Assembly (NCBI RefSeq): GCF_003428645.1
Contig: NZ_QVQH01000004.1
Coordinates: 62,001 to 126,000 of the forward strand
Length of the DNA: 64,000 nucleotides
Direction: 5' to 3'
DNA from: Geodermatophilus marinus
GTDB taxonomy: Bacteria > Actinomycetota > Actinomycetes > Mycobacteriales > Geodermatophilaceae
Every line of letters begins with the position of its first letter. The first letter of the stretch is position 1. This document shows, piece after piece, positions 7,816 through 46,018 of the stretch. A program made the position numbers and the translations under genes. The notes beneath the pieces were generated by a model, which was not told the DNA's origin, did not search any database, and saw nothing but the letters and a program-made list of their open reading frames with translations.

Positions 7816-8180
7816 CCGCCGGGCTCCCGGACCGCCACGGCCTCCGCGACGACGGGCACCCGGAGCGGGGCCGGCCCCAGCGGTTCGACCTCCACGGCCA
7901 CCCGCACCACGACCTCCTCCGCCCCGGCCCCGACGGTGACCTCCGCGCCACCGGGCGCGGCCCGCCGGGCCAGCGCCACCACGACGGCCTCGTCCTCGCC
8001 CCGCGCGGCGGCCCGGGCGCCCTCCCGCGCGGCGTCGACGCAGCGCAGGTGCGCCGCCAGGACGGTCACCGCCGCCACCGCGCCGGCCAGGACGACCAGG
8101 AGCACGGGCAGGACCACGGCGGTCTCCGCGGTCACCATCCCCGCCTCGCGCCGCCGGCGCCGCGCGTCCCGACCGGCCAC
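7812..8180 (-). CDS. TadE-family pilus assembly protein
   Basis: A 122-residue TadE-type protein: basic N-terminus (RDARRRRREAG), the motif MVTAETAVVLPVLL leading into one membrane helix, then a periplasm-side domain. GTG 8180 keeps the basic segment expected before the helix; ATG 8138 is an alternative giving 108 residues. It corresponds in position to Rv3655c. Two bases separate it from the upstream DUF4244 gene. Confidence 0.8.
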   Translation of the reverse strand: MAGRDARRRRREAGMVTAETAVVLPVLLVVLAGAVAAVTVLAAHLRCVDAAREGARAAARGEDEAVVVALARRAAPGGAEVTVGAGAEEVVVRVAVEVEPLGPAPLRVPVVAEAVAVREPGG

Positions 8181-8182
8181 GG

Positions 8183-8458
8183 TCAGGACAGCGTGGCCAG
8201 CGCGTCGGCGACCAGGGCGCCGAGCGCGTCGACGACCGACCCGCCCGTGACCACCCGGTAGAGCACCGCGGCGAAGGCGCACGCGGCAACGGTGCCGACC
8301 GCGTACTCCGCGGTGCTCATCCCGGCCTCCCCGGCCGCCCGCAGCCGGGCCCACCGGCCCGCCGGGCGGGGGGTCGACCGGACGGCCCCGGGCGCCGGCG
8401 GCGGGGCCGCACCGGTCGCCGGGGCCGGTCGCGGGTGCTCGTCCTGCTGGTGGCTCAC
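8183..8458 (-). CDS. DUF4244 protein, Flp-pilin-like (Rv3656c-like)
   Basis: A 91-residue protein with a Pro/Arg-rich N-terminus followed by GMSTAEYAVGTVAACAFAAVL, the Flp-pilin-like signature: a Glu at +5 of a possible processing site and then a hydrophobic helix. It is the candidate pilin subunit of the cluster. GTG 8458 has a strong ribosome site (GAGGAGGAC). The 118-bp space before it is the largest gap in the operon, and pilin is usually the most abundant product. Confidence 0.8.
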   Translation of the reverse strand: MSHQQDEHPRPAPATGAAPPPAPGAVRSTPRPAGRWARLRAAGEAGMSTAEYAVGTVAACAFAAVLYRVVTGGSVVDALGALVADALATLS

Positions 8459-8576
8459 GGGTCCTCCTCGGTCGCGGCCCGCCGTCGGGGCCGTCTCGGG
8501 AGAGCCTGGGGCGGCACGTGGGGACGCGGGGCGCACCGCCCGCGGCTGTGGAGGGCGACGCGGGCTGTGGACGGCC

Positions 8577-9308
8577 TCAGCCCAGGACGTCCCCGGCGAT
8601 GCCGATGACCAGCGGCACCACGCCGAGGCAGAGGAAGGCGGGCAGGAAGCAGACCCCGAGCGGGGCCAGGACCCACACCCCGGCCCGCCGGACGGCGGCG
8701 TCGGCCCGGCTGCGCTCCCCCGCCCGGACGTCGGCGGACAGCGCCCGCAGGGCGGGCACGACCGCGGACCCGGACTCCCCGGCCCGCACGACGGCCCGGC
8801 GCAGCCCGGCGAGCTCCTCCGGCACGGCCTCCCACGCCTGCCGCGGTGGTGCGCCCAGGCGCTGCAGCGCGGCGACGGCCCCCAGCTCCCGGCCCACCGG
8901 GCCGGGCAGCGCCGCGGCGACGGCGGCGAGGGCGCCGGGGACGGGCAGGCCGGTGCCGAGGCACACCGCGAGCAGGTCGCAGGCCACCGGCAGGTCCCGG
9001 CGCAGCGCGGCGGCGTCCCCCTCGCCCCGGCCGCCCCGCGCCCGCAGCAGGCGCTCGGCCGCCACGGTCCCGACGGCGGCCACGACGGGGCCCGCCGTGC
9101 CACCGACCAGCGCCCCGGCCGCGAGGCCCGCCGCGGCGGCGAGCAGCCACCGCCCGCGCGTCCCCGCGACCGCCGACCCCCGGGGCCGCGGGGGTGCGGG
9201 CCCCGGCCCGGCCAGCGCGCGCAGCCGCGCCCGGACCGCCGGGGCCCGGGACGGCCACACCGCCACCGCCGCGGCCAGGCAGAGCAGCAGCGGGGCCGCG
9301 CCGCTCAC
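8577..9308 (-). CDS. TadC-like type II secretion F-family membrane protein
   Basis: A 243-residue inner-membrane platform protein with a GspF-type domain (about residues 100-220) and membrane helices at about 55-85 and at the C-terminus. It pairs with the TadB-like gene just upstream (GTGA overlap), as in Rv3657c/Rv3658c. It would anchor the TadA ATPase and pilin extrusion. Confidence 0.85.
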   Translation of the reverse strand: MSGAAPLLLCLAAAVAVWPSRAPAVRARLRALAGPGPAPPRPRGSAVAGTRGRWLLAAAAGLAAGALVGGTAGPVVAAVGTVAAERLLRARGGRGEGDAAALRRDLPVACDLLAVCLGTGLPVPGALAAVAAALPGPVGRELGAVAALQRLGAPPRQAWEAVPEELAGLRRAVVRAGESGSAVVPALRALSADVRAGERSRADAAVRRAGVWVLAPLGVCFLPAFLCLGVVPLVIGIAGDVLG

Positions 9309-10162
9309 CGCAGCGCCCGCCGGACCAGCCGCGCGGTCCAGGCCAGACCGACCGCCTCCAGGCCCGCCCCGGCGAGCAGCAGGATCTGGCCCGTGACCGT
9401 GCCGGTCAGCACCCCCCAGGGGTCGGCGCCGATCCCGGACCCCATCGCCAGCCCGAGCAGCGGCAGACCCGCGAGCACCGCGGCGCTGGCACGGGCACCC
9501 GCCGTCGCGGCCCGGAGCTCACCGGTCAGGCGCCGGCGGGCCCGCAGGTCGTCCTCGACCGCCGCGAGCACCGCGGCCAGCGAGCACCCGGTCCGCACGC
9601 TGAGCGCGACGGCGGCCGCGATGCGCTCGAGCGCGGCCCGCGGGGGCTCCTCCCCCGCAGGCGGGCCGGTGGCCCGTCGTTCCGCACCCCCCGCGGACCG
9701 GCTCGCGCCCCCAGGGGGAGCGGCCGCAGTCCCCGGGGAGCGGACGGCGGTCGCCAGGGCCCGGCCGCTCCCCGCGTCGGCGCAGAGGGCCACGGCGCTC
9801 GCGGTCGCGGCCTCCAGCGGGCGCCCGGCCCGGAGCTCCGCGGACAGCGCGCCCAGCGCCTCGGCGAGCGCGGCCAGCCGGTGCTCCGCCGCCCGGTCGG
9901 CCTGCCGCCGGAGCACGGCCCGGGCGGCGCCCCCTGCTCCGGCCCCGGCCAGCACGGCCACGACCGGCGGGGCGACCAGCGCGGCGGCCGCGGTGACCAG
10001 CGCGACCACCACCGCCGGCCGCGGCGGCCGGGCCGGCCGCAGGCGGGTCCTGCGCCGGCCCGGCTCACCCGGGAACCGGGCGCCCGCCAGCCGGTCGGCC
10101 GCCGCGGTGGCCCGGGGCCAGGCCGCCACGGCGGCGGCGAGGGCGAGCAGCGCCGCGGTCAT
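9305..10162 (-). CDS. TadB-like type II secretion F-family membrane protein
   Basis: A 285-residue membrane protein with two N-terminal helices, a GspF-type cytoplasmic domain, and C-terminal helices (about 205-265). A low-complexity insert lies in the middle (about 140-170). ATG 10162 overlaps the TadA stop (ATGA). It is the second half of the TadB/TadC platform. Confidence 0.85.
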   Translation of the reverse strand: MTAALLALAAAVAAWPRATAAADRLAGARFPGEPGRRRTRLRPARPPRPAVVVALVTAAAALVAPPVVAVLAGAGAGGAARAVLRRQADRAAEHRLAALAEALGALSAELRAGRPLEAATASAVALCADAGSGRALATAVRSPGTAAAPPGGASRSAGGAERRATGPPAGEEPPRAALERIAAAVALSVRTGCSLAAVLAAVEDDLRARRRLTGELRAATAGARASAAVLAGLPLLGLAMGSGIGADPWGVLTGTVTGQILLLAGAGLEAVGLAWTARLVRRALR

Positions 10163-11298
10163 CCCGGCCGGCCCACCAGGGCGCGCAGCCGCCCGGCCGC
10201 CGGGCAGGGCCCGCCGTCGGCCCGCCAGCCCGGCTCGACGGTGACCAGCGGCCCCACCCGGCTGACCACGCCCAGCTCCTCGACCCGGCGGCCGGTGCCC
10301 GTCCGCCGCAGGTGCACGACCACGGCGAGCGCGGCCGCCGCCTGGCTGTGCACCGCCGCCCGCTCGAGCCCCGCGGCCACGCCGAGGGCCTCCAGCCGGG
10401 CCGGCACCTCCGCGGCCCGGTTGGCGTGCAGGGTGCCGCAGCCGCCGTCGTGCCCGGTGTTGAGCGCGGCCAGCAGGTCGGTGACCTCCGCTCCCCGCAC
10501 CTCGCCGACGACGAGCCGGTCCGGCCGCATCCGCAGGGCCTGGCGGACGAGGTCGCGCAGGGTCACCTCACCGACCCCCTCGACGTTCGGCGGCCGGGTG
10601 GCCAGCCGCACCACGTGCGGGTGGGCGGGAGCCAGCTCCGGCGCGTCCTCGCAGAGGACCAGGCGCTCGGTCGCCGGCACCTGCCCCAGCAGCGCGGCCA
10701 GCAGCGTCGTCTTGCCCGAGCCGGTGCCGCCGGTGACCAGGAAGGCCAGCCGGGTCGCCAGCACGGCGCGCAGCAGGTCGCCCGCCTCCCCGGGCAGCGT
10801 GCCGCGGCGGTCGAGGTCGTCGAGGCCGAGCGCGGCCCGGCGCAGCACCCGCAGCGACAGGCACGTCCCCGTGGCCGCCACCGGGGGCAGCACGGCGTGC
10901 AGGCGCGTGCCGTCGGGGAGGCCGACGTCCACCCACGGCGCGGCGTCGTCGAGCCGCCGGCCGGCGGCCGCGGCGAGCCGGACGGCCAGCCGTCGGACGG
11001 CGTCCTCGTCCGGGAAGCGCACCGGCGCGCGCTCGAGGCCCGTCCCGCGGTCCACCCAGACCTCGTCCGGCCCGTTCACCAGGACGTCGGTCACCCCGGG
11101 TGCGCGCAGCAGGGGCTCCAGCGGACCCGCGCCGGCCAGCTCGTCCACCGCGGCCCGCACCGCCCGCAGCACCTCGTCGTCGCCGAGCAGGCCCCCGGCC
11201 TCCTCCCGCACCAGCGCCGCCACCGCGGTCCGCGTCGGCGGCCCGGGGTCGGTGGCCAGCCGCGCCCGGACCCGCTCGACCAGCGCGAGCTCCGTCAT
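10159..11298 (-). CDS. tadA: TadA/CpaF secretion ATPase
   Basis: A 379-residue secretion ATPase. Walker A is GGTGSGKTT (about residues 188-196), followed by the Asp box (LCEDAPEL) and Walker B region (LVVGEVRGAEVTDLL), then the GCGTLHANRA His box. It powers pilus assembly at the inner membrane. ATG 11298 overlaps the upstream CpaE-like stop. Family: TadA of the helicase/secretion neighbourhood (Rv3659c-like). Confidence 0.93.
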   Translation of the reverse strand: MTELALVERVRARLATDPGPPTRTAVAALVREEAGGLLGDDEVLRAVRAAVDELAGAGPLEPLLRAPGVTDVLVNGPDEVWVDRGTGLERAPVRFPDEDAVRRLAVRLAAAAGRRLDDAAPWVDVGLPDGTRLHAVLPPVAATGTCLSLRVLRRAALGLDDLDRRGTLPGEAGDLLRAVLATRLAFLVTGGTGSGKTTLLAALLGQVPATERLVLCEDAPELAPAHPHVVRLATRPPNVEGVGEVTLRDLVRQALRMRPDRLVVGEVRGAEVTDLLAALNTGHDGGCGTLHANRAAEVPARLEALGVAAGLERAAVHSQAAAALAVVVHLRRTGTGRRVEELGVVSRVGPLVTVEPGWRADGGPCPAAGRLRALVGRPG

Positions 11299-12392
11299 GC
11301 CGCCTCCTCAGGCGCGGCCAGCTCCGCGCAGAGCCGGCGGGCGAGCCGGCCCACCGGCGTGCGGGTTCCCGCGGCCGGGGGCAGGCCGCGCTCCCCGCGG
11401 TCGGCGGTGCCGCGGTCGTGCCCCAGCTCGGCGAACACCGGCCGGCCGACCGCGGCCGCGACCTCGGCCGCGCCCAGGCCGCCGGGGACCCGGCGCAGCA
11501 CCACCCTCGCCGGCGCCCAGGCCGGCGGAGCGCCCGGACCGGCACCGGCACCCAGCAGCATGCGGGCCGCGGTGGCGGACCGGACCCGGCCGGCCACGAG
11601 CAGCACGGCCAGGTCGGCCTCGGCGAGCACGCGGTCCTCGACGTCCCGGCCGGCCGCGCGGTGCAGGTCGACGACCACCGGGCAGCCGGCCGACCGGGCC
11701 GCGTCGACGGCCGCCACCACGGCCTCGGGGTCGACCGGCTGCACAGCACCCCGGGAGCAGGCGAGCACGCCGACCCCGCCGACCTCCGGCAGGGCCGCGA
11801 GCAGGGCCTCCCCACCGACCCGGCCGCGCAGCCCGGACAGCTCGGGCCAGCGCGACCCCTCGCGCCCCTCGGCGCCCAGCACGAGGTCGAGCCCGCCGCC
11901 GGCGGCGTCGGTGTCGACCAGCAGCGCCCGCCCCGCGACCCCGGCGAGGGCCGCTGCAGCGGCGGTGGCCAGCGTGCTCGCTCCGGCACCCCCGCTGCTG
12001 GCCCCGACCACGAGCAGCGGCCCGCGCTGGACCGGCCCGCGCCCGGCAGCCGCGGCGCGGGCGAGCAGCCACTCCTCGTCGTCCGGGAGGACGGCGACCC
12101 GCTCCGCGCCCCGCTCGACGGCGGCGGCCCAGCACCGGGCCGGCAGCTCCGACCGGGCCACGACGACCAGACCGGGCCGCCGGGGCAGCGCGCGCACCGC
12201 CGCCGCCGTGAGCAGGTCGGCGCCCAGCAGCACCAGGGACGCCTCCCGGTGCGCGCGGCGCAGCGCGGGCCCGCCGGTGGCCAGCTCCGGATCGGTGCCG
12301 GCGGCGGCGAGGACGCGGAGCAGGTCGTCGAGCAGGTCCTCGTCGGCGCTGACGACGAGCGGGCGCACCGGCGGGGTGCGGGCGGCGGTCAC
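11295..12392 (-). CDS. ssd: CpaE-like / septum-site-determining protein Ssd
   Basis: A 365-residue protein with a receiver-like N-terminal half and a MinD/ParA-like C-terminal half. The P-loop is altered: GASSGGAGASTLA lacks the canonical deviant-Walker Lys pair. It is the first gene of the tad operon, like Rv3660c (Ssd), which affects septation and localisation. GTG 12392 starts divergently from the HAD hydrolase gene across 125 bp. Confidence 0.82.
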   Translation of the reverse strand: MTAARTPPVRPLVVSADEDLLDDLLRVLAAAGTDPELATGGPALRRAHREASLVLLGADLLTAAAVRALPRRPGLVVVARSELPARCWAAAVERGAERVAVLPDDEEWLLARAAAAGRGPVQRGPLLVVGASSGGAGASTLATAAAAALAGVAGRALLVDTDAAGGGLDLVLGAEGREGSRWPELSGLRGRVGGEALLAALPEVGGVGVLACSRGAVQPVDPEAVVAAVDAARSAGCPVVVDLHRAAGRDVEDRVLAEADLAVLLVAGRVRSATAARMLLGAGAGPGAPPAWAPARVVLRRVPGGLGAAEVAAAVGRPVFAELGHDRGTADRGERGLPPAAGTRTPVGRLARRLCAELAAPEEAA

Positions 12393-35816: not shown

Positions 35817-36152
35817 CACCGCCTCCACGTGCCGTCCCCGGCCACCGCGGAGCCCGCCCGGTCCCTCGTCGGGGACCCTCCGGGCCCCGCTCCTCACGCC
35901 CACCGCCTCCACGTGCCGTCCCCGGCCACCGCGGAGCCCACCCGGCCCCTCGTCGGGGACCCTCCGGGCCCCGCTCCTCACGCCCACCGCCTCCACGTGC
36001 CGTCCTCGGCCACCGCGGAGCCCACCCGGCCCCTCGTCGGGGACCCTCCGGGCCCCGCTCCTCACGCCCACCGCCTCCACGTGCCGTCCCCGGCCACCGC
36101 GGAGCCCACCCGGCCCCTCGTCGGGGACCCTCCGGGCCCGGCCCGTCACGGC
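35817..36152. repeat. Four 84-bp tandem repeats between cobL and cobM
   Basis: Head-to-tail copies start at 35817, 35901, 35985 and 36069 (CACCGCCTCCACGTGCCGTC...). They differ at only a few positions; the last copy diverges in its final ~18 bases. Each unit has a CCCCTCGTCGGGG hairpin and a CACGTG. The repeat fills the whole 370-bp space; it is open in several frames because 84 is divisible by three, but none has a start or ribosome site that looks real. Confidence 0.97.
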
Positions 36153-36160
36153 CACGCCGC

Positions 36161-38028: not shown

Positions 38029-39130
38029 CTCACCGACCGCGGCCGGGCTGGCCCTGGGGGCCCTGGCCGACCTGCTGCTCGCCGATCCCCGGCGCGGGCA
38101 CCCGGTCGCCGGCTTCGGCCGCCTGGCCGCTGCCCTGGAGCGCCGCGCCTGGCGGGACTCGCGGTCCGCCGGGGCCGGGTACGCCGCGCTCCTCGTGGGC
38201 GGGGCGGCCGGTGCGGGCCTGGTGCTGGACCGCGCCACCCGCGGCCGGCCGGTGCTGCGGACGGCGGTGACCGCCGCGGCCACCTGGACGGTGCTGGGCG
38301 GCACCTCGCTGGGCCGCGCGGCCGGGGCGCTGCACCGGGAGCTGGACGGCGGCGACCTGCCCGCGGCCCGGGTCCTCCTCCCGGCGCTCGCCGGCCGCGA
38401 CCCGAGCGCCCTCGACGCGGGCGAGCTGGCCCGGGCGACCGTCGAGTCGGTCGCGGAGAACACCTCCGACGCCGCCGTGGCGCCCCTGCTGTGGGGGGCC
38501 GTCGCGGGGCTGCCGGGCCTGCTGGGGTACCGCGCGGTCAACACCCTCGACGCCATGGTCGGCCACCGCTCCCCCCGGTACGCCCGGTTCGGCTGGGCCG
38601 CCGCGCGCGCCGACGACGTCGCCAACTGGCTGCCGGCCCGGGTGACCGCCGCCCTCACCGTGGCCGCGGCCCCGGTGGCAGGCGGGTCGGCGGCCGGGGC
38701 GCTGCGCACCTGGTGGCGGGACGGCGCGGCGCACCCGAGCCCGAACTCCGGCCGGTGCGAGGCCGGCCTGGCCGGGGCCCTCGGCCTGCGCCTGGGCGGC
38801 CGCAACGTCTACGGCGACCGGGTGGAGGAGCGGCCCGCGCTCGGCAGCGGCCGGCCCGCGGGCCCCGACGACGTGCCCCGCGCGGTGCGGCTGTCCCGGG
38901 CGGTGTGGCTGTCGGCCGCCGTCCTCGCCGCCGCGGTGCGCGCCGCCGCGGGCGCGCGGCGGCCCGCACCGGGTCAGCGGAGGGTGTCGGCGAGCGGCCG
39001 CGCCGGGGCCAGCCGCCACGCGTCCGGGACCGCCTCCGGGGCGGTCGCGGGGGCGTCGGTGGCCCGGCGCCGCGGCGCGACCGGTGCGAGGTCGAGGACC
39101 ATCCGGGTCGGCGCGAAGGCCTCGGCGTAG
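38024..39130 (+). CDS. cobD: Adenosylcobinamide-phosphate synthase (CobD/CbiB)
   Basis: A 368-residue membrane enzyme that attaches aminopropanol (or its phosphate) to adenosylcobyric acid. Signatures: GALADLLLADPRRGHPVAGFGR, ATVESVAENTSDAAVAPLLW (residues about 140-160) and RAVNTLDAMVGHRSPRY, PARVTA. GTG 38024 has the ribosome site GGGGAGG. The final ~50 residues are Arg/Ala/Ser-rich, extend past the usual family length and overlap the convergent PIG-L gene by 157 bases; either a real tail or a decayed stop. Confidence 0.9.
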   Translation: MGSPTAAGLALGALADLLLADPRRGHPVAGFGRLAAALERRAWRDSRSAGAGYAALLVGGAAGAGLVLDRATRGRPVLRTAVTAAATWTVLGGTSLGRAAGALHRELDGGDLPAARVLLPALAGRDPSALDAGELARATVESVAENTSDAAVAPLLWGAVAGLPGLLGYRAVNTLDAMVGHRSPRYARFGWAAARADDVANWLPARVTAALTVAAAPVAGGSAAGALRTWWRDGAAHPSPNSGRCEAGLAGALGLRLGGRNVYGDRVEERPALGSGRPAGPDDVPRAVRLSRAVWLSAAVLAAAVRAAAGARRPAPGQRRVSASGRAGASRHASGTASGAVAGASVARRRGATGARSRTIRVGAKASA

Positions 39131-39702
39131 CCGATCCGCGCCTGCGCGCCCCAGTGGCGGGCCGAGGCGACGACGGCGTCCGGCTCGACCATGGCCGACA
39201 GCTCCACCTGCGAGGCGTGCGCGCCGAGCGCGGCGAGCTTGCCGGAGAGGTAGGCGGTGACGTCGACGAACACCGACGGGGCGAAGGCCAGCGTCGAGGG
39301 GCTCTGGTAGTGCAGCACCCGGGAGAGCCGCCGGGCCGCCGAGAGGGTCACGGCCGCGACCGCGCGGTGGTCCTGGTGGCTGTCGTCGGGGGCGTGCACG
39401 TAGACCAGGTCGGCGCCGGTCTCCTCGATCGTTCGCTCCACGACGCGCACGGTGGCCGCGTCGGCGGTCACGAGGCAGTCGGTCTGCCCGCCCCACCGCA
39501 GCCGGGCACCGAGGGCGCGGGCGGCCTGCTCCTGCTCGGCGCGGCGGCCGGCCACCCGCCGGCTGTCGCCCGGGCCGTTCTCCCCGCCGGTCATCACCAG
39601 CACGGTGACCGCGTCGCCGGCGGCCGCGTGGGCCAGCAGGGTGGCGCCGCAGCCGAGCTCGACGTCGTCGGGGTGGGCCCCCACGGCGAGGACGTTACGC
39701 AT
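38974..39702 (-). CDS. PIG-L family deacetylase
   Basis: A 242-residue zinc-dependent N-acetylglucosaminyl-type deacetylase. Zn ligands appear in AHPDDVE near the N-terminus and in DSHQDHRAV near residue 115. The family includes MshB, mycothiol conjugate amidase and sugar deacetylases. ATG 39702 (rather than 39732) begins directly before the fold. It overlaps the secreted-protein gene upstream by 8 bases and ends the exosortase cluster, so a cell-surface or glycan substrate is plausible. Confidence 0.85.
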   Translation of the reverse strand: MRNVLAVGAHPDDVELGCGATLLAHAAAGDAVTVLVMTGGENGPGDSRRVAGRRAEQEQAARALGARLRWGGQTDCLVTADAATVRVVERTIEETGADLVYVHAPDDSHQDHRAVAAVTLSAARRLSRVLHYQSPSTLAFAPSVFVDVTAYLSGKLAALGAHASQVELSAMVEPDAVVASARHWGAQARIGYAEAFAPTRMVLDLAPVAPRRRATDAPATAPEAVPDAWRLAPARPLADTLR

Positions 39703-40255
39703 CGTCGCCGCCCGCCGGGGCCGCGGCCGCACCCCGCCGGCGGGACCGGTGCAGGGCGAACGCGCCGACCAGACCGGCCGCGGCCAGCGCGATGACCGGG
39801 CCGGTGCCGTTGCCGTCGGCCGGCATCTGCGTGGCCGACGGGCAGACCTTCGAGTACGTCATGGACGGCTGGTACCGCAGGGTCGTCCCGTCGAGGACCC
39901 AGCGCGCGTCGCCGTACAGGTCGGCGTTCGTGATCCGCACCGTGAACGCGCCGTGGTGCGTGCCCGGCTGGAAGGTCGTCGGCTGCACCCCCTGCAGCCG
40001 GGTCGGGTGGGCCTGGTTGCGGGAGCCGCGCGCGATGGTGACCGGCGCGCCGTACGTGCTGACGTAGCCGACGACGACGGTGTAGCTGCCGTCGCGGTGG
40101 TCGGTGTAGCAGTCCACGATGCCGCGCACGCCGCCGGTCGCCCCGGCCGTGCCCGGTGCGGCGACCAGCGCGACGGCGGCCAGGGCCGCGACCAGCAGGG
40201 CCCGGGCGAGGCGCGCGGTGGCGCGCGCGAGCGGGGTGTCCTGGGTGCCTTGCAT
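39695..40255 (-). CDS. Secreted protein with exosortase-type C-terminal sorting region
   Basis: A 186-residue exported protein. Residues about 18-40 form a signal peptide (basic start, ALLVAALAAVALVAAPGTAGA). The mature part has two Cys and a beta-rich character (GSYTVVVGYVSTYGAPVTI; AFTVRITNADLYG). The C-terminus has a polar linker (MPADGNGTGP), a hydrophobic helix (VIALAAAGLVGAFAL) and a basic stop (HRSRRRG): the three-part form of sortase/exosortase substrates. No LPxTG is present. It lies in one operon direction with the exosortase-like gene, the obvious candidate enzyme. Confidence 0.78.
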   Translation of the reverse strand: MQGTQDTPLARATARLARALLVAALAAVALVAAPGTAGATGGVRGIVDCYTDHRDGSYTVVVGYVSTYGAPVTIARGSRNQAHPTRLQGVQPTTFQPGTHHGAFTVRITNADLYGDARWVLDGTTLRYQPSMTYSKVCPSATQMPADGNGTGPVIALAAAGLVGAFALHRSRRRGAAAAPAGGDDA

Positions 40256-40400
40256 GGCGTCGTCCTCGTCTTCCCGGGGCGATCGGCCCGCCCCTCGGAA
40301 GGGGCATCGGCAGCGCGCCGTGCGCGGTCGAGCGCGGGGGCGGCGGGGTCACCCGGAGGGGGTGCGCCGGCCACCGGTGAGCGGGGTCCCGGGTGCCCGC

Positions 40401-41138
40401 TCAGACGGGGGCGGGCGACCCGGTGCCGGCGAGCACGGCCAGGGCGACCGCGGCCGCCGACGGCAGGTCGTCGACGACCGCCCACGCCCGCGGCTCGTCG
40501 GGGGCCGCGGCGTGCTCGCCCTGCCGGACCCGCACGGCGTGCGCGCCGACCGCGGCGGCGACCGCGACGTCCTTGGCCGGCCGGTCCCCGATCACCAGGA
40601 GCCGGTCCGCGGGCACGCCCAGCCGGGCGGCCAGGGCCCGCAGCCCGGCGGGGTGCGGCTTGCGGACCCCGCGCCCGCCGAGCGCGTCGGTGACCACCAC
40701 GGCCGGCAGCAGCGCGCCCAGGCCGGTGGCGGCGAGCTTGGCCGCCTGCATGGCGGGGTTGCCGTCGGTGAGGCAGCCGAGGGGCGCCGCGGCCGCCAGC
40801 GCGCGCAGCGCCGCCGCGACCCCCGGGTAGGGGGCGAGCCGGGCGGGGCGGTGCCCCGTGAAGGCGGCCACGAGCGCGGGCACGTGCTCGCCGAGCCGCC
40901 GGGCCGGGACGCCGGCGGCCAGCAGCGCGCGGTCGATCGTGCCGCCGGTGTCCGACCCGGCGGCCAGCTCGGCGGCCAGGGCGGCGTGCACCGCCTCCCC
41001 GTCCAGGCCGCGCGTGCCGGCCGCCCGGTCGACGGCGGCGGCGGCGCCGGCGAGGTAGCCGGCCTGGGGGAAGAGGGTGTCGTCGAGGTCGACGACCACC
41101 CCGAGCGGCGGCGGCCCCGGGAAGGGGGGCGGGGTCAC
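40401..41138 (-). CDS. HAD-family hydrolase
   Basis: A 245-residue haloacid dehalogenase-like phosphatase: motif I VVDLDDTLFP (about residue 15), a helical cap, motif II CLTDGNP, Lys in KPHPAGL, and motif IV VIGDRPAKDV. GTG 41138 overlaps the epimerase stop (GTGA). Substrate unknown; within this cluster it may dephosphorylate a sugar phosphate. Confidence 0.85.
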   Translation of the reverse strand: MTPPPFPGPPPLGVVVDLDDTLFPQAGYLAGAAAAVDRAAGTRGLDGEAVHAALAAELAAGSDTGGTIDRALLAAGVPARRLGEHVPALVAAFTGHRPARLAPYPGVAAALRALAAAAPLGCLTDGNPAMQAAKLAATGLGALLPAVVVTDALGGRGVRKPHPAGLRALAARLGVPADRLLVIGDRPAKDVAVAAAVGAHAVRVRQGEHAAAPDEPRAWAVVDDLPSAAAVALAVLAGTGSPAPV

Positions 41139-42298
41139 CACGGCAGCCGGCCGTCGGTGTGGTCGGGCTCCTCGAGGGCCAGGAGCGCGTCGGTGCGCGG
41201 GTCGGCGAGCACGGCGGCGACCCGCGCACCCGTCGTCCCGTCGCCGTAGGGGCAGGGCAGCGCGGCCGCGCGGGCCTGGCCCTCGGGGCTGGTGTGCGCC
41301 GCGGCGGCGGTGAGGACGGCGGCGGCCGCGCGGTCGTCGGTGAGCCCGGCCAGGGTGGTCGTCCCGGCCTCGACCCCCTCCCACCGCGGGGTGGAGCGGC
41401 GCAGCACCACGACCGGCACGCCCAGGTAGGCCGCCTCCTCCTGGATGCCGCCGGAGTCGGTGACCGCCAGGCGGGACCGGCCGAGGGCGGCGAGCAGGTC
41501 GTCGTGGCCGACCGGCCCCGACAGCGTGACCCCGGGGGCGTCGAGCTCCGCGGCCAGCCCCGCCGACGCGAGGCGGGCGGCGGTCCGGGGGTGCACGGGG
41601 AACGTGACCGGGCCGACCCGCTCGGCCAGCGCGCGGACGACGGCCACCAGCCGGGCCAGCCGCACCGGGTCGTCCACGTTCGTCGGGCGGTGCGCGGTCA
41701 CGAGCACGCCGCGCCGCTCGGCGACCGGCACCGGCCGCACCCCGCGGGCGACGAGGGTGTCGACGACGGGGTTGCCGACGACGAGGACCCGCTCGGCGGG
41801 CACCCCCTCGGCGGCCAGGAACGCCGCCGCCCGCTCGGTCGGCGCGAAGTGCAGCGACGCGACCGCGGCGGCGACCCGCCGGTTGACCTCCTCCACGCTG
41901 CGCGCGTTGAGGCTGCGCAGGCCCGCCTCCACGTGCGCGAAGGGCACGCCGGCGGCGCGGGCGGCCAGCGCGTAGGCGGGCACGGTGGCCGTGTCGCCGA
42001 GCGCCAGGACGACGTCCGGGGCGCAGGTCGCGACCGCCCGGGCGGCGTCGGCGTGCAGGGCCCCGGCGCGCGCGGCGGGGTCGGCGGTGGGCAGCTCGAA
42101 GCGCAGGGTCGGCGTGAGCCCGAGCGCCTCCTGGAGCCGGCGGCCCATGGCCGGGTCGGTGTGCTGGCCGGTGTCGACGACGTGCACCCGGTGCCCGGCC
42201 GCGGCGAGCGCGGCGACCACCGGGGCGAGCTTGACCACCTCGGGGCGGGTGCCGAAGGGCACCAGCACGCTGCGCCGGCGCGGCTCCCGCGGTGTCAC
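41135..42298 (-). CDS. wecB: UDP-N-acetylglucosamine 2-epimerase (WecB-like)
   Basis: A 387-residue non-hydrolysing epimerase that interconverts UDP-GlcNAc and UDP-ManNAc. Motifs: FGTRPEVVKLAPV, DTGQHTD, HVEAGLRSLN, VEEVNRRV, TAHRPTNVD (usually TxHRREN) and TDSGGIQEEA. Both overlaps (ATP-grasp before, HAD after) are GTGA. It would supply ManNAc units to the glycosyltransferase at the head of the operon (inference). Confidence 0.9.
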   Translation of the reverse strand: MTPREPRRRSVLVPFGTRPEVVKLAPVVAALAAAGHRVHVVDTGQHTDPAMGRRLQEALGLTPTLRFELPTADPAARAGALHADAARAVATCAPDVVLALGDTATVPAYALAARAAGVPFAHVEAGLRSLNARSVEEVNRRVAAAVASLHFAPTERAAAFLAAEGVPAERVLVVGNPVVDTLVARGVRPVPVAERRGVLVTAHRPTNVDDPVRLARLVAVVRALAERVGPVTFPVHPRTAARLASAGLAAELDAPGVTLSGPVGHDDLLAALGRSRLAVTDSGGIQEEAAYLGVPVVVLRRSTPRWEGVEAGTTTLAGLTDDRAAAAVLTAAAAHTSPEGQARAAALPCPYGDGTTGARVAAVLADPRTDALLALEEPDHTDGRLPW

Positions 42299-43347
42299 GC
42301 CCGCACCGCCACCGGCGCGCAGGGGTCGGCGACCGGGCGGCCGTCGTCGCTGGTGTAGGTCTCGGCGTGGTAGCGGCTCATCCGGACGCCGGGGGTGAAC
42401 CACAGCAGCGGCAGGTCGGCGTCCGGGTCGCGGACCCCGGTGAGGTAGGCGCTCACGACGTCCGCCCCCGCGGCCAGGGTGAGCGGCAGGCCGCCGGAGA
42501 AGCGCGGGTTGACCTCGACGACGGTCACCCGCCCGTCGTCGCCGACGAAGCCCTGCACGTTGGCCGGGCCGGTCAGCCCGACCGCGGCCAGCGCGTCGGC
42601 CACGACCGCGGTGACCGCGGCGGAGTCGAAGGTGCTGCCCTTGACCGAGATGCCGGCCCTGGTCTCCTCGCGCCAGCGCGGGACCACGGTGCGCAGCTCG
42701 CCGTCGCGGCCGACCAGCGCGTCGGCCGTCCACTCCCGGCCGGCCAGCCGGCTCTGCGCGACCAGGTCCGGGTCGGCCGCGAGCGCGGCGGCGACCTCGG
42801 CGGCGGTCGCGAGCAGCCGGACCCCGCGGCTGCCGCGCCCCGCGCGCGGCTTGACCACCCAGGGCCCGGGGACGCCGGGCAGGTCCGCCGCCCGGGCAGC
42901 GGTCGCCGGGTGCGGCACACCGGTCGCCCGCATCCGCTCGGCGAACCGGGCCTTGTCGCAGCACACCCGCACCGCCGCGGGCGGGGCCGGCCAGGTGGCG
43001 ACCCCGGCCGCGGCCAGCCGGGCGGCGCCGGCGGCCAGGGCCGGGAGCTCCTCGGCCACGGTCGGCACCAGGGCGTCGGCGCCGTAGGCGGTGGCCACCC
43101 CGATCAGCGCGTCCACGAAGCGCGGGTGGTCCGCGCGCGGCACGGTGACCGCGACGTCGGCCAGGGCGCCGCCGGCCGCCGTCCAGTCGGCGTCGGCGGC
43201 GACCACCCGGTGGCCGAGGGCGACCAGGCGGCGGACCACCGCGACCCCGGCCGGGCCGCCGGAGCCGGTCACCAGCACGGCGGGCGGCGTCCGGGGGCCG
43301 GCCGCGACCCGCGGGGCGGGCACGGCGGGGGCGGGCGAGCGGGTCAC
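42295..43347 (-). CDS. ATP-grasp enzyme (carbamoyl-phosphate-synthase-like)
   Basis: A 350-residue protein with an N-terminal Rossmann-like part (VLVTGSGGPAGVAVVRRLVALG) and an ATP-grasp domain (WVVKPRAGRGSRGVR near residue 170; VVEVNPRFSGGLPL near 295). Such enzymes join a carboxylate to an amine, thiol or similar group through an acyl phosphate. Coupled by GTGA overlaps to the exosortase-like gene and wecB. Substrate unknown; modification of a glycan or peptide is possible. Confidence 0.87.
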   Translation of the reverse strand: MTRSPAPAVPAPRVAAGPRTPPAVLVTGSGGPAGVAVVRRLVALGHRVVAADADWTAAGGALADVAVTVPRADHPRFVDALIGVATAYGADALVPTVAEELPALAAGAARLAAAGVATWPAPPAAVRVCCDKARFAERMRATGVPHPATAARAADLPGVPGPWVVKPRAGRGSRGVRLLATAAEVAAALAADPDLVAQSRLAGREWTADALVGRDGELRTVVPRWREETRAGISVKGSTFDSAAVTAVVADALAAVGLTGPANVQGFVGDDGRVTVVEVNPRFSGGLPLTLAAGADVVSAYLTGVRDPDADLPLLWFTPGVRMSRYHAETYTSDDGRPVADPCAPVAVRA

Positions 43348-44561
43348 GGGGCGTCCTGCGGGTGAGTGGGGCCGGGCTGCACCGGGCGGGCGAAGGAGGC
43401 GGGCCGGTCGCCGCGGGCGCGGTGCCGGCCGACCGCCGGGGTCCCGTCACCGGCCGGCGGCGGCGCGGGCGGGCCGCCCGGGACGGCGAGCCGCGGCGCC
43501 GGGAGGGTGCGCAGGGCGCCGGTCACCGGCTCGGCGGGGACGACGGGGCCGGGGCCCCTGGCGGAGCGGGCGAGCAGCCAGCCGCGCGCCCACAGGCGGA
43601 GCGCGGCGATGCGGTGCCCCGTCACCGGCTCCCACTGCCGGGCGGCGACCGCCTCGGCGAGGGCGTCCAGCACCGCCGGGTCCTCCTCGTAGGTGGCCAC
43701 CGCGACCAGCGAGGCGGTGTGCACCCCGAGCCCGTCGGCGGCCAGCTCCCGCACGCGTGCGGCCCGCAGGTCGGCGGGCAGGTGGCCGATCCGGTAGTCG
43801 ATCCGCGCGGCCTCGCGGCGGGCGGCCAGCCGCCGGGAGACACCGCGGGGCAGCAGGAACCGGTGCAGCAGGCCGGCGAGCCTCCTGCGGCCCCCACCGG
43901 CGCCGTCCCCGGTCTCGTCGACCCGGTAGCCCAGCCCCGGGCGGGCCCAGCCGTCGGGGCGCCGGGCGGTGTGCCGTCCGGCGGCGTCCTGCTCCGCCCG
44001 CTCCGGGGCGGGCAGCGCCACGTACACCAGGACGAGGAAGCCGCCCAGGGTGGCGGCGAGGTTCCACACGGTGCCGACCCAGTCGTGGAAGAGCACCAGC
44101 GCGCCGTCCCCCCACCACAACCCGGCCAGCGTCGAGAGCAGCAGCCGGAGGTGGTTGAGCAGCAGCACGAGCCCGACGGCGACCACGAGGCCGCCCAGCG
44201 CGTGCAGCGCGCGGCTGCGCAGGACCACGGCGGTCAGCGCGGTGAGGCCGAGCACCGAGAGCACCGACGAGCAGGAGGCGGTGACGACCGCGTCGATGAT
44301 GTACGGGGGGCTGTCGCGGAAGACGAGCACGTGCTGCGGCAGCACGCCCGAGACCTCCCCGATGCCGGCCAGCCGCAGGACGGCGACGACGCCGCGCGCC
44401 TCGACCGTCTGCAGCGGGCCCGCCAGGTACCGGAAGCCGAGCACGCAGATGGCCGCGGCCAGCCCCAGGTCGGCCAGCACGGGCAGGAGGCGCCGGGTGC
44501 TGCCCGGCGAGCGGCCGGAGCGCGCCGGGAGGGTGGCGCCGGAGGTGGTCGCGGCGGTCAC
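43344..44561 (-). CDS. Exosortase/archaeosortase-superfamily membrane transpeptidase with C-terminal domain
   Basis: A 405-residue protein. Residues about 28-185 hold the multi-helix exosortase core with the conserved triad: C97 in VVTASCSSVLS, R139 in LLLNHLRL, and H159 in VLFHDWVG. Residues about 240-350 form a soluble helical domain not typical of the family. By family precedent, it cleaves a C-terminal sorting signal and links the protein to a surface anchor. Coupled by GTGA overlaps to the GT2 gene before and the ATP-grasp gene after. Subfamily could not be assigned by eye. Confidence 0.82.
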   Translation of the reverse strand: MTAATTSGATLPARSGRSPGSTRRLLPVLADLGLAAAICVLGFRYLAGPLQTVEARGVVAVLRLAGIGEVSGVLPQHVLVFRDSPPYIIDAVVTASCSSVLSVLGLTALTAVVLRSRALHALGGLVVAVGLVLLLNHLRLLLSTLAGLWWGDGALVLFHDWVGTVWNLAATLGGFLVLVYVALPAPERAEQDAAGRHTARRPDGWARPGLGYRVDETGDGAGGGRRRLAGLLHRFLLPRGVSRRLAARREAARIDYRIGHLPADLRAARVRELAADGLGVHTASLVAVATYEEDPAVLDALAEAVAARQWEPVTGHRIAALRLWARGWLLARSARGPGPVVPAEPVTGALRTLPAPRLAVPGGPPAPPPAGDGTPAVGRHRARGDRPASFARPVQPGPTHPQDAP

Positions 44562-46018
44562 CGGCCCGCTCCCCCGCGGGGCGCCGCGGACGACCGCGGG
44601 TGGGCGGGCGGGGCGCCGGGTGCCGGGGCCGGCGGTTCGCGGCGCACGGTCGACGTCGCCCCGGACCGCGAGGTCTTCGCCCACGTGTAGGGCCGGCCGA
44701 GCATGCCGTCCAGGTAGGCCCGCGAGGTGATCCAGATGGACAGCGCGAAGGCCGGCAGGAAGCCCAGCAGCCGCCACGCCGAGCGCCGCTCGACCCGCCC
44801 GACCAGGAGGCCGACGCACAGCTCGGCCAGCGGGCCGACGAAGAGCAGCATCGACAGCGGCAGCAGCGCCACGAACGGCAGGTCACCGATGCCGGAGGCG
44901 CGCAGCGCGGTGAGCACCAGGCCCAGCCCGCAGAGCATCGGCACGTGGTAGACGAGCAGGAACAGCGTCGTCTCGACCTTCTCGAGCCAGGACAGGTGCG
45001 GTGAGCGCATCAGCGGCCACCAGTGGTCGCGGGCGCACTTCTGGTGGCCCCGGGCCCAGCGGTAGCGCTGCCGCCAGAAGCGCTGGGTGTTGAGCACCGC
45101 CTCCTCGAAGTCGATGGCCGAGACGTCGTAGCGCACCCGCTGGCCGGCGAGGAGCACCCGCAGCGTCAGGTCGGTGTCCTCGGTCACCGTCCCCGGGTCC
45201 CACCCGCCGAGCGCGCGCAGCGTGGACATCCGCACCGCGCAGTTGGCACCGCCGTAGGCCGGCAGCTCGAACAGCGCCTGCCGGCCGTACTCGTTGACCA
45301 GGTAGCCGGACAGGTAGTCGACGAAGACCGTGCCGGCCGTCGCGGAGTCGCGGCCGTTGCGGATGACGCAGCGACCCATCACCGCCCCCACGGCGGGGTC
45401 GCGGAAGTGCCGGACCAGCCGGCGCAGGGCGGAGGGCTCGGGCTCGTGGTCGGCGTCGAAGACCAGCACGACCTCGGCGTCGACCAGGGCGAGGGCGTCG
45501 TTCAGGGCGCCCGACTTGCCCCCGCCGGCCCCCGGCGGGCGGTGCAGCACCCGCAGCCGGGGCTCCGCCGCGGCCCAGGCGTCGAGCCGGGCGCCGGTGC
45601 CGTCGGCGGAGCCGTCGTCGACGACGACGAGGGCCAGCCGGTCGGCGGGGTAGTCCAGCGCGAGCAGTGCGGTCACCAGGCCGTCGACGACGAGCTCCTC
45701 GTCCTTGCAGCCGACCAGGACCGCCACCGACGGGGTGTACGTGCCCAGGCCCGCGTCGGCGGCGAGCAGGTCGCGCTCGGCCCAGCGGGCGGCGGCGACG
45801 GCGAAGGCCAGGTGCCGGCAGAAGTAGACCGCGAAGACGACGTTGAGGACGCCGGCGAGCACCCCGAGGGTGGGGTCCACGCCGAAGGCGGCCAGCGCCG
45901 CGGCCAGGGCGACGGCGTAGCCGAGGAGGACCAGCGGCCGGCCCTCGGGCCGGGGCCCGGGGCCCGGAGCGGCCGGGGCGGGGACGCCGGGAGGCCCGGG
46001 GAGCGCCGTCACCGACAC
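44558..46018 (-). CDS. Membrane GT2 glycosyltransferase (cellulose/poly-GlcNAc-synthase-like)
   Basis: A 486-residue processive-type glycosyltransferase. Two N-terminal membrane helices (about 28-75), then the GT-A domain with VDDGSADGT, FDADHEP, VTEDTDLTLR and the QRYRWARG motif, then three or four C-terminal helices (about 340-450). It would polymerise or transfer an activated amino sugar across the membrane. GTG 46018 follows a strong ribosome site (GGGGAGGAGG). It heads the exosortase operon, and a perfect hairpin lies in its leader. Confidence 0.9.
   Translation of the reverse strand: MSVTALPGPPGVPAPAAPGPGPRPEGRPLVLLGYAVALAAALAAFGVDPTLGVLAGVLNVVFAVYFCRHLAFAVAAARWAERDLLAADAGLGTYTPSVAVLVGCKDEELVVDGLVTALLALDYPADRLALVVVDDGSADGTGARLDAWAAAEPRLRVLHRPPGAGGGKSGALNDALALVDAEVVLVFDADHEPEPSALRRLVRHFRDPAVGAVMGRCVIRNGRDSATAGTVFVDYLSGYLVNEYGRQALFELPAYGGANCAVRMSTLRALGGWDPGTVTEDTDLTLRVLLAGQRVRYDVSAIDFEEAVLNTQRFWRQRYRWARGHQKCARDHWWPLMRSPHLSWLEKVETTLFLLVYHVPMLCGLGLVLTALRASGIGDLPFVALLPLSMLLFVGPLAELCVGLLVGRVERRSAWRLLGFLPAFALSIWITSRAYLDGMLGRPYTWAKTSRSGATSTVRREPPAPAPGAPPAHPRSSAAPRGGAGR

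Follow-up and report, generated by a model that had tools for sequence, protein, structure and literature searches.

Gram-positive exosortases that sit beside glycosyltransferases are already known, and models exist for two such systems, XrtG and XrtP. To what acceptor bacterial exosortases deliver their substrates has been an open question ever since 2006, when the family was put forward. A cassette from Geodermatophilus marinus (assembly GCF_003428645.1, contig NZ_QVQH01000004.1), carried on the minus strand of a 64,000-nt stretch of DNA (positions 62,001-126,000 of the forward strand; hereafter the window), offers a way into this question. Its seven genes encode a family 2 glycosyltransferase (GT2), an exosortase, an ATP-grasp ligase, the UDP-GlcNAc 2-epimerase WecB, a HAD-superfamily hydrolase, a tail-bearing secreted protein, and a PIG-L de-N-acetylase. 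These probably constitute a complete, dedicated exosortase sorting system of the Actinomycetota, one that would join the C terminus of a protein to a surface glycan or glycolipid. The cassette is small and closed, and resides in culturable soil and rock actinobacteria; the window genome has one short substrate, and the candidate acceptor-making enzymes adjoin the exosortase or are fused to it.

Described systems

The XrtG system of Firmicutes (TIGR03110/TIGR03111), as described in L. plantarum, resembles the cassette in placing a Gram-positive exosortase beside a GT2-type glycosyltransferase and one CTERM protein (PMC12854382). Unlike the window, however, it has two glycosyltransferases and is without PIG-L, ATP-grasp, WecB, and a helical-repeat domain described below (PMC12854382). 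XrtG membership was rejected: the window exosortase has no match to TIGR03110 (cut-off 102.75), and the GT2 reaches 42.7 bits on TIGR03111 (cut-off 363.95). The XrtP system likewise has an associated GT2 model, NF053846, but the window GT2 scores 89 against a cut-off of 520.

The EpsH (XrtA-type)/PEP-CTERM system shares more general features: a Cys/Arg/His membrane transpeptidase-like enzyme; substrates with a signal peptide and a tail of motif, helix, and Arg residues; and polysaccharide genes (PMC1569441). It differs in being Gram-negative, with a PEP motif, many substrates, a larger enzyme of eight transmembrane segments, and FemAB/CE4-type genes where the window has ATP-grasp and PIG-L. 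Assignment to this system also failed, as the window exosortase has no TIGR02602 match and scores 19.9 bits on the Pfam EpsH model (cut-off 25.7), and the tail motif is PxxGNG.

Two further systems bear on mechanism. For ArtA, an archaeosortase that belongs to the same superfamily, the proposal is a Cys thioester which the amine of an ethanolamine lipid then resolves (PMC7157517); the lipid amine is made by PssA and PssD, and there is no glycan cassette. In Porphyromonas gingivalis, the linking sugar is thought to be deacetylated (by VimE), given serine or glycine (by VimA), and then joined to the protein C terminus; the authors speculate on a similar course at those exosortase loci that contain a deacetylase and a FemAB-like gene (PMC7468200). 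The likeness of this Wbp/Vim pathway (P. gingivalis/T. forsythia) to the cassette is functional only, in that a deacetylase and amino-acid transfer create the linking sugar. Its enzymes are unrelated (CE4 VimE, GNAT/FemAB-like VimA, PorU), it concerns outer-membrane A-LPS, and it has no exosortase. Membership in that pathway was rejected because the cassette has PIG-L and ATP-grasp in place of the CE4 and FemAB/GNAT-like enzymes.

A first-pass annotation of the window suggested that the locus could be a Gram-positive counterpart of exosortase/exopolysaccharide systems. That reading is supported, although it is not itself new, XrtG and XrtP being already catalogued. What differs from the named Gram-positive exosortase systems is the presence of PIG-L, ATP-grasp, WecB, HAD, the repeat domain, and both of the tails described below. 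A search of the open-access literature for exosortases with ATP-grasp or in Geodermatophilus found no description of the cassette, which is widely conserved and apparently uncatalogued.

The Geodermatophilus cassette

The features, all on the minus strand and listed in the direction of transcription, are as follows.

44558..46018, minus: GT2, a processive-type membrane family 2 glycosyltransferase (PF13641, 83.5 bits); motifs D135, DAD188-190, ED280-281, and QRYRW317-321 are conserved at 97% or more over 56 alignment rows
43344..44561, minus: exosortase (XRT; TIGR04178, 32.3 bits against a cut-off of 23), with C97, R139, and H159
42295..43347, minus: ATP-grasp ligase (ATPG), PRK12767-like (PF02655, PF15632); K132, K166, E278, and N280 are conserved
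41135..42298, minus: WecB, non-hydrolysing UDP-GlcNAc 2-epimerase (TIGR00236, 237.7 bits against a cut-off of 210.15); active-site columns are conserved in the alignment
40401..41138, minus: HAD-superfamily hydrolase with a DLDDT motif (PF00702, 61.3 bits); catalytic residues are conserved
39695..40255, minus: secreted substrate (SUB), with signal peptide, small beta domain, and sorting tail (30-row alignment)
39695..39827, minus: sorting tail of SUB, comprising MPADGNGTG (P145, N149, G150), a hydrophobic helix, and RSRRR
38974..39702, minus: PIG-L/LmbE de-N-acetylase (PF02585, 84.6 bits against a cut-off of 28.2), with motifs HPDD10-13 (H10, P11, D12, D13) and HxDH109-112 (H109, D111, H112)

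All seven open reading frames (ORFs), running from 46018 to 38974, were found where the first-pass annotation had placed them, and the family models agree with the names it had given. The GTGA overlaps it had reported are likewise present at four consecutive junctions: GT2/exosortase, exosortase/ATP-grasp, ATP-grasp/WecB, and WecB/HAD. A gap of about 145 bp separates HAD from the secreted protein gene; the last 8 bp of that gene are shared with the start of PIG-L. The GC content of the window is very high (72-83%), and promoter and terminator scans gave no match.

The exosortase is the only TIGR04178 match in the whole G. marinus genome. Its membrane core spans residues ~20-185, with hydrophobic helices at 22-64, 100-113, 118-150, and 152-182, and is mostly modelled by AlphaFold at a predicted local distance difference test (pLDDT) score of 82-97. 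The proposed catalytic residues C97, R139, and H159 are invariant across 28 homologues, down to ~30% identity, and exosortases of distant cassettes score 34-46 bits on TIGR04178. The model match, the Cys/Arg/His set, and a co-occurring tail together assign the enzyme to the exosortase/archaeosortase superfamily, as the annotation had proposed. It passes the superfamily model and misses every named subfamily cut-off. Of the named subfamilies, XrtS, XrtR, and XrtP score highest for this clade. XrtS (NF033767) is best for the window enzyme, at 36.8 bits against 145; XrtR (NF012138) and XrtP (NF012139) give 20.2 against 150 and 12 against 200, and membership in all three was rejected.

The GT2 scores 114.6 bits on TIGR03937, the PgaC/IcaA poly-GlcNAc synthase model, below the cut-off of 422.3. 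It was not classed as PgaC/IcaA, the features in common being the processive GT2 motifs only.

A tail that tracks the exosortase

Relatives of SUB keep the signal peptide, two Cys residues (C49 and C138, invariant in the 30-row alignment), the (M/L)P-x-x-(G/A)NG motif, the hydrophobic helix, and RR. AlphaFold models a beta domain at residues 41-140 (pLDDT 95-97) and a C-terminal helix at 152-177; a SUB profile found no match among the sequences of solved structures.

Among 30 genomes of the window's order, full-length matches to the tail profile (E < 1e-7) occur in 13 of the 14 with the exosortase and in none of the 16 without it (Fisher p = 1.2e-7, uncorrected for kinship, though single genera include both positive and negative genomes). 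Because tails adjoining the cassette were used to build the profile, independent evidence comes from the 16 negative genomes, where the tail is absent, and from three unlinked copies. One of these is in G057, where a cassette without an adjacent substrate is accompanied by a tail protein on another contig; G164 and G176 have additional unlinked tail proteins. At the level of gene content, then, occurrence of the tail is tied to that of the exosortase, and the co-occurrence of enzyme and substrate that the annotation had proposed to check is borne out.

This pattern bears on the possibility that an ordinary LPXTG-type sortase anchors the tail, or that the tail is a mere membrane anchor, and that the exosortase has another target. 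The tail is indeed tripartite like LPXTG tails; sortases are present in all genomes; and the tail of one distant substrate (L084) gives a weak match to sortase-dependent tails (19.5 bits, below the cut-off of 27). Precisely because all 30 genomes have ordinary sortases, however, these do not explain the pattern: the tail follows the exosortase, and unlinked tail proteins occur only where the cassette is present. We regard this explanation as very unlikely.

Distant cassettes adjoin secreted proteins with a second tail: P-x-G-x-x-GG, a hydrophobic helix, and QRRR. Several match the NCBI model "choice-of-anchor P" (112-130 bits, cut-off 27), a name given to domains found with alternative C-terminal anchors; another, in L084, is an fn3 protein. 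A profile of this second tail matches nine ORFs in G587 (the genome of L082), unlinked copies included, and one in G588, a sequence not used in building the profile. In cassette-less control genomes it gives none or one marginal match, and in the window genome none. Since unlinked copies occur in cassette genomes, some members would therefore sort several proteins, and the G587 system may sort many.

The annotation's "one dedicated protein" thus holds for the window genome, which has a single full tail, but not for relatives with two substrates (tandem or unlinked) or for the distant genome with nine. The tandem case is L029 (13928-15614), where the second substrate has an added F5/8 type C (discoidin-like) domain before the tail domain. 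No NCBIfam model covering either tail signature was found; both would allow annotation of surface proteins across the Actinomycetota.

Inheritance of the cassette

A search of 200 genomes of the window's order with the exosortase as query found matches in the window genome and 14 others, distributed patchily within genera. Two weak matches, in G158 and in G106 (there a second copy), belong to a different exosortase type. All remaining matches share the neighbours GT2, ATP-grasp, WecB, and HAD, with PIG-L at either end, and within the 30-genome set ATP-grasp orthologues (at least 53% identity) occur in exactly the 14 exosortase-positive genomes. Among relatives of the same family, the other enzymes are mostly 70-87% identical; the secreted protein, at 38-49%, evolves fastest.

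A second scan, with one genome per species and some species shared with the first search, identified 47 cassette loci across the Actinomycetota. Family-level relatives are found in Geodermatophilus, Blastococcus, Modestobacter, Klenkia, and Trujillonella. Beyond the family, the cassette occurs in Micromonospora, Pseudonocardia, and Catenulispora, and in metagenome-assembled genomes (MAGs) of Acidothermus, Streptosporangiaceae, and Acidimicrobiaceae. ATP-grasp is present at 46 of the 47 loci, GT2 at 46, and PIG-L at 44; contig ends explain the absence of PIG-L from L048 and L091, of GT2 from L091, and of ATP-grasp from L070.

Among the exosortase loci examined, the combination is particular to this clade. 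In a phylum survey of 397 evenly drawn genomes, 21 contain an exosortase. Among those whose neighbourhoods were retrieved, two further genomes, G424 and G384, carry the clade (192 and 175 bits on the clade profile; all other loci at most 34), and both have the repeat domain as well as ATP-grasp and PIG-L. None of the three was found at the remaining loci examined, some of which lie on short contigs. Loci scoring 41-72 bits on the XrtS, XrtR, and XrtP models are also without all three. In an exosortase-core tree the cassette members group together (2 changes of label; 9.9 for shuffled labels), with long branches by which a single origin is neither shown nor excluded.

In the genomes compared, the exosortase, tailed protein, GT2, PIG-L, ATP-grasp, WecB, and HAD are evidently inherited as a unit. 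Geodermatophilaceae cassettes occupy several unrelated flanking contexts, which suggests that the cassette moves, or is kept, as one. The individual parts are common gene families, and might on that account be thought a chance or merely metabolic grouping; but recurrence in dozens of genomes, with several unrelated flanks and with gene fusions, already contradicts this idea, which we consider barely credible.

Two variations were seen in the window's family. Four Blastococcus loci (L047, L049, L050, and L053; 12.7-15.0 kb) have a second PIG-L gene immediately after the first. Five genomes have a second, different exosortase class beside WecB and GT2 (L032, L033, L043, L044, and L045), with 41-54 bits to XrtP, XrtR, and XrtS in the two loci scored, below the cut-offs.

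Gene fusions through a helical-repeat domain

Several features went unremarked in the first-pass annotation: a helical-repeat bridge domain, exosortase-ATP-grasp fusions, the second tail class, and the spread past the family. The bridge domain is the C-terminal third of the exosortase (residues ~228-334), which is helical in the AlphaFold model and, from sequence pattern and helices alone, appears HEAT-like. Its fusion to the exosortase is family-wide. In distant loci, the repeat domain is instead encoded as a membrane-anchored ORF of its own or forms the N-terminal region of the ATP-grasp protein (for example in L076, L077, and L084). At four loci, exosortase, repeat domain, and ATP-grasp lie in one frame: L060 and L068 (Geodermatophilus), L074 (a MAG), and L075 (Micromonospora). 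L072, whose exosortase is interrupted by a frame change, was left out of this count. On gene-fusion reasoning, the joining of exosortase to ATP-grasp through the repeat domain implies that the two act side by side.

Proposed mechanism

That the cassette sorts protein is well supported by these genomic comparisons. We infer its chemistry (cleavage site, amide bond, sugar identity, acyl group, and HAD function) and also, beyond what sequence can prove, the covalent attachment to a glycan. In outline, the signal peptide would export the secreted protein, and the C-terminal helix would hold it. Cys97 would attack near P-x-x-G-N-G to form a thioester, and an amine would resolve the thioester, so that the protein ends up with an amide bond at its C terminus. 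The cassette itself would make the acceptor amine: WecB could supply a ManNAc/GlcNAc donor; GT2 could build or cap a short amino-sugar glycan; PIG-L could strip an N-acetyl group to expose the amine; and ATP-grasp, membrane-held beside the exosortase, could acylate that amine with an amino acid or a similar group. HAD probably serves this branch as a phosphatase. The end product would be a surface glycan or glycolipid carrying a protein bound by its C terminus.

The proposed acceptor, an amino sugar that WecB, GT2, and PIG-L would produce and ATP-grasp would elaborate, is suggested by the presence of candidates for both deacetylation and acylation, as in P. gingivalis. It is suggested too by the relatives of these enzymes. 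PIG-L relatives with solved structures are deacetylases (diacetylchitobiose deacetylase and BshB-type enzymes). For ATP-grasp, the closest solved relative is 2pn1, followed by carbamoyl-phosphate synthase, VanA/Ddl, and L-amino acid ligase; L-amino acid and D-Ala ligases are among these relatives.

Two other outcomes have to be weighed here. The exosortase might attach its protein to the amine of a membrane lipid, the adjoining glycan genes making a separate, co-regulated, capsule-like polymer. This we judge unlikely: ArtA, albeit a distant superfamily member, provides a precedent (PMC7157517), and the GT2 resembles the polymer-forming PgaC type, but translational coupling, exosortase-repeat-ATP-grasp fusions, and near-universal co-inheritance exceed the needs of co-regulation, and the cassette contains no gene for lipid-amine synthesis. 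Or the exosortase might be a processing protease only, which cuts the tail and releases the protein, whose beta domain then binds glycan non-covalently. The binding-type domains seen at times in substrates (F5/8 type C in L029, fn3 in L084) would fit such release. Such a protease would nevertheless give no explanation for the PIG-L and ATP-grasp genes or for the fusions, and for EpsH the Cys/Arg/His residues have been proposed as a transpeptidase set (PMC1569441), so that we think this likewise unlikely.

Several observations count against attachment of the protein to a cassette-made acceptor. Exosortase models score low in the clade (32-46 bits), albeit over the cut-off, and PDB fold searches with the AlphaFold models of the exosortase and of SUB gave nothing below E = 0.001. 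The nearest solved ATP-grasp relative, 2pn1, carries its name by similarity only. L080 is without PIG-L near the cassette, with sequence present on both sides. Finally, at four Acidimicrobiaceae-type loci (L079, L081, L082, and L084) the ATP-grasp has lost the KPRxGRGSR loop and the E-x-N metal ligands; its chemistry is therefore not essential to sorting everywhere.

WecB and HAD are absent from exactly these four loci. This joint loss makes a single biochemical branch of catalytic ATP-grasp, WecB, and HAD seem likely, and leaves the exosortase, GT2, PIG-L, and helical-repeat protein as the apparent cassette core. The pseudo-ATP-grasp at the four loci retains its repeat-domain fusion beside the exosortase, which indicates an additional structural role.

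A more specific version of C-terminal attachment, which we put forward tentatively as possible rather than probable, is that the window enzyme represents a new exosortase subfamily, in which a membrane complex of exosortase and ATP-grasp makes its own aminoacylated amino-sugar acceptor beside the transpeptidase and joins proteins C-terminally to a dedicated glycan in Gram-positives. If true, this would add a further C-terminal anchor chemistry to lipid II (sortase) and amine lipids (archaeosortase, rhombosortase).

Other observations

Four Blastococcus-type loci without this exosortase (L035, at 8147-11481, and L036-L038) bring together a response regulator-PIG-L fusion, an ATP-grasp 41-44% identical to that of the cassette, and a processive GT2. 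PIG-L, ATP-grasp, and GT2 thus exist as a module without the exosortase.

Elsewhere in the window, four near-identical 84-bp tandem repeats (35817-36155; 96% matches) lie within a cobalamin-biosynthesis gene cluster. If read in frame, they would give a repeated unit of 28 residues.

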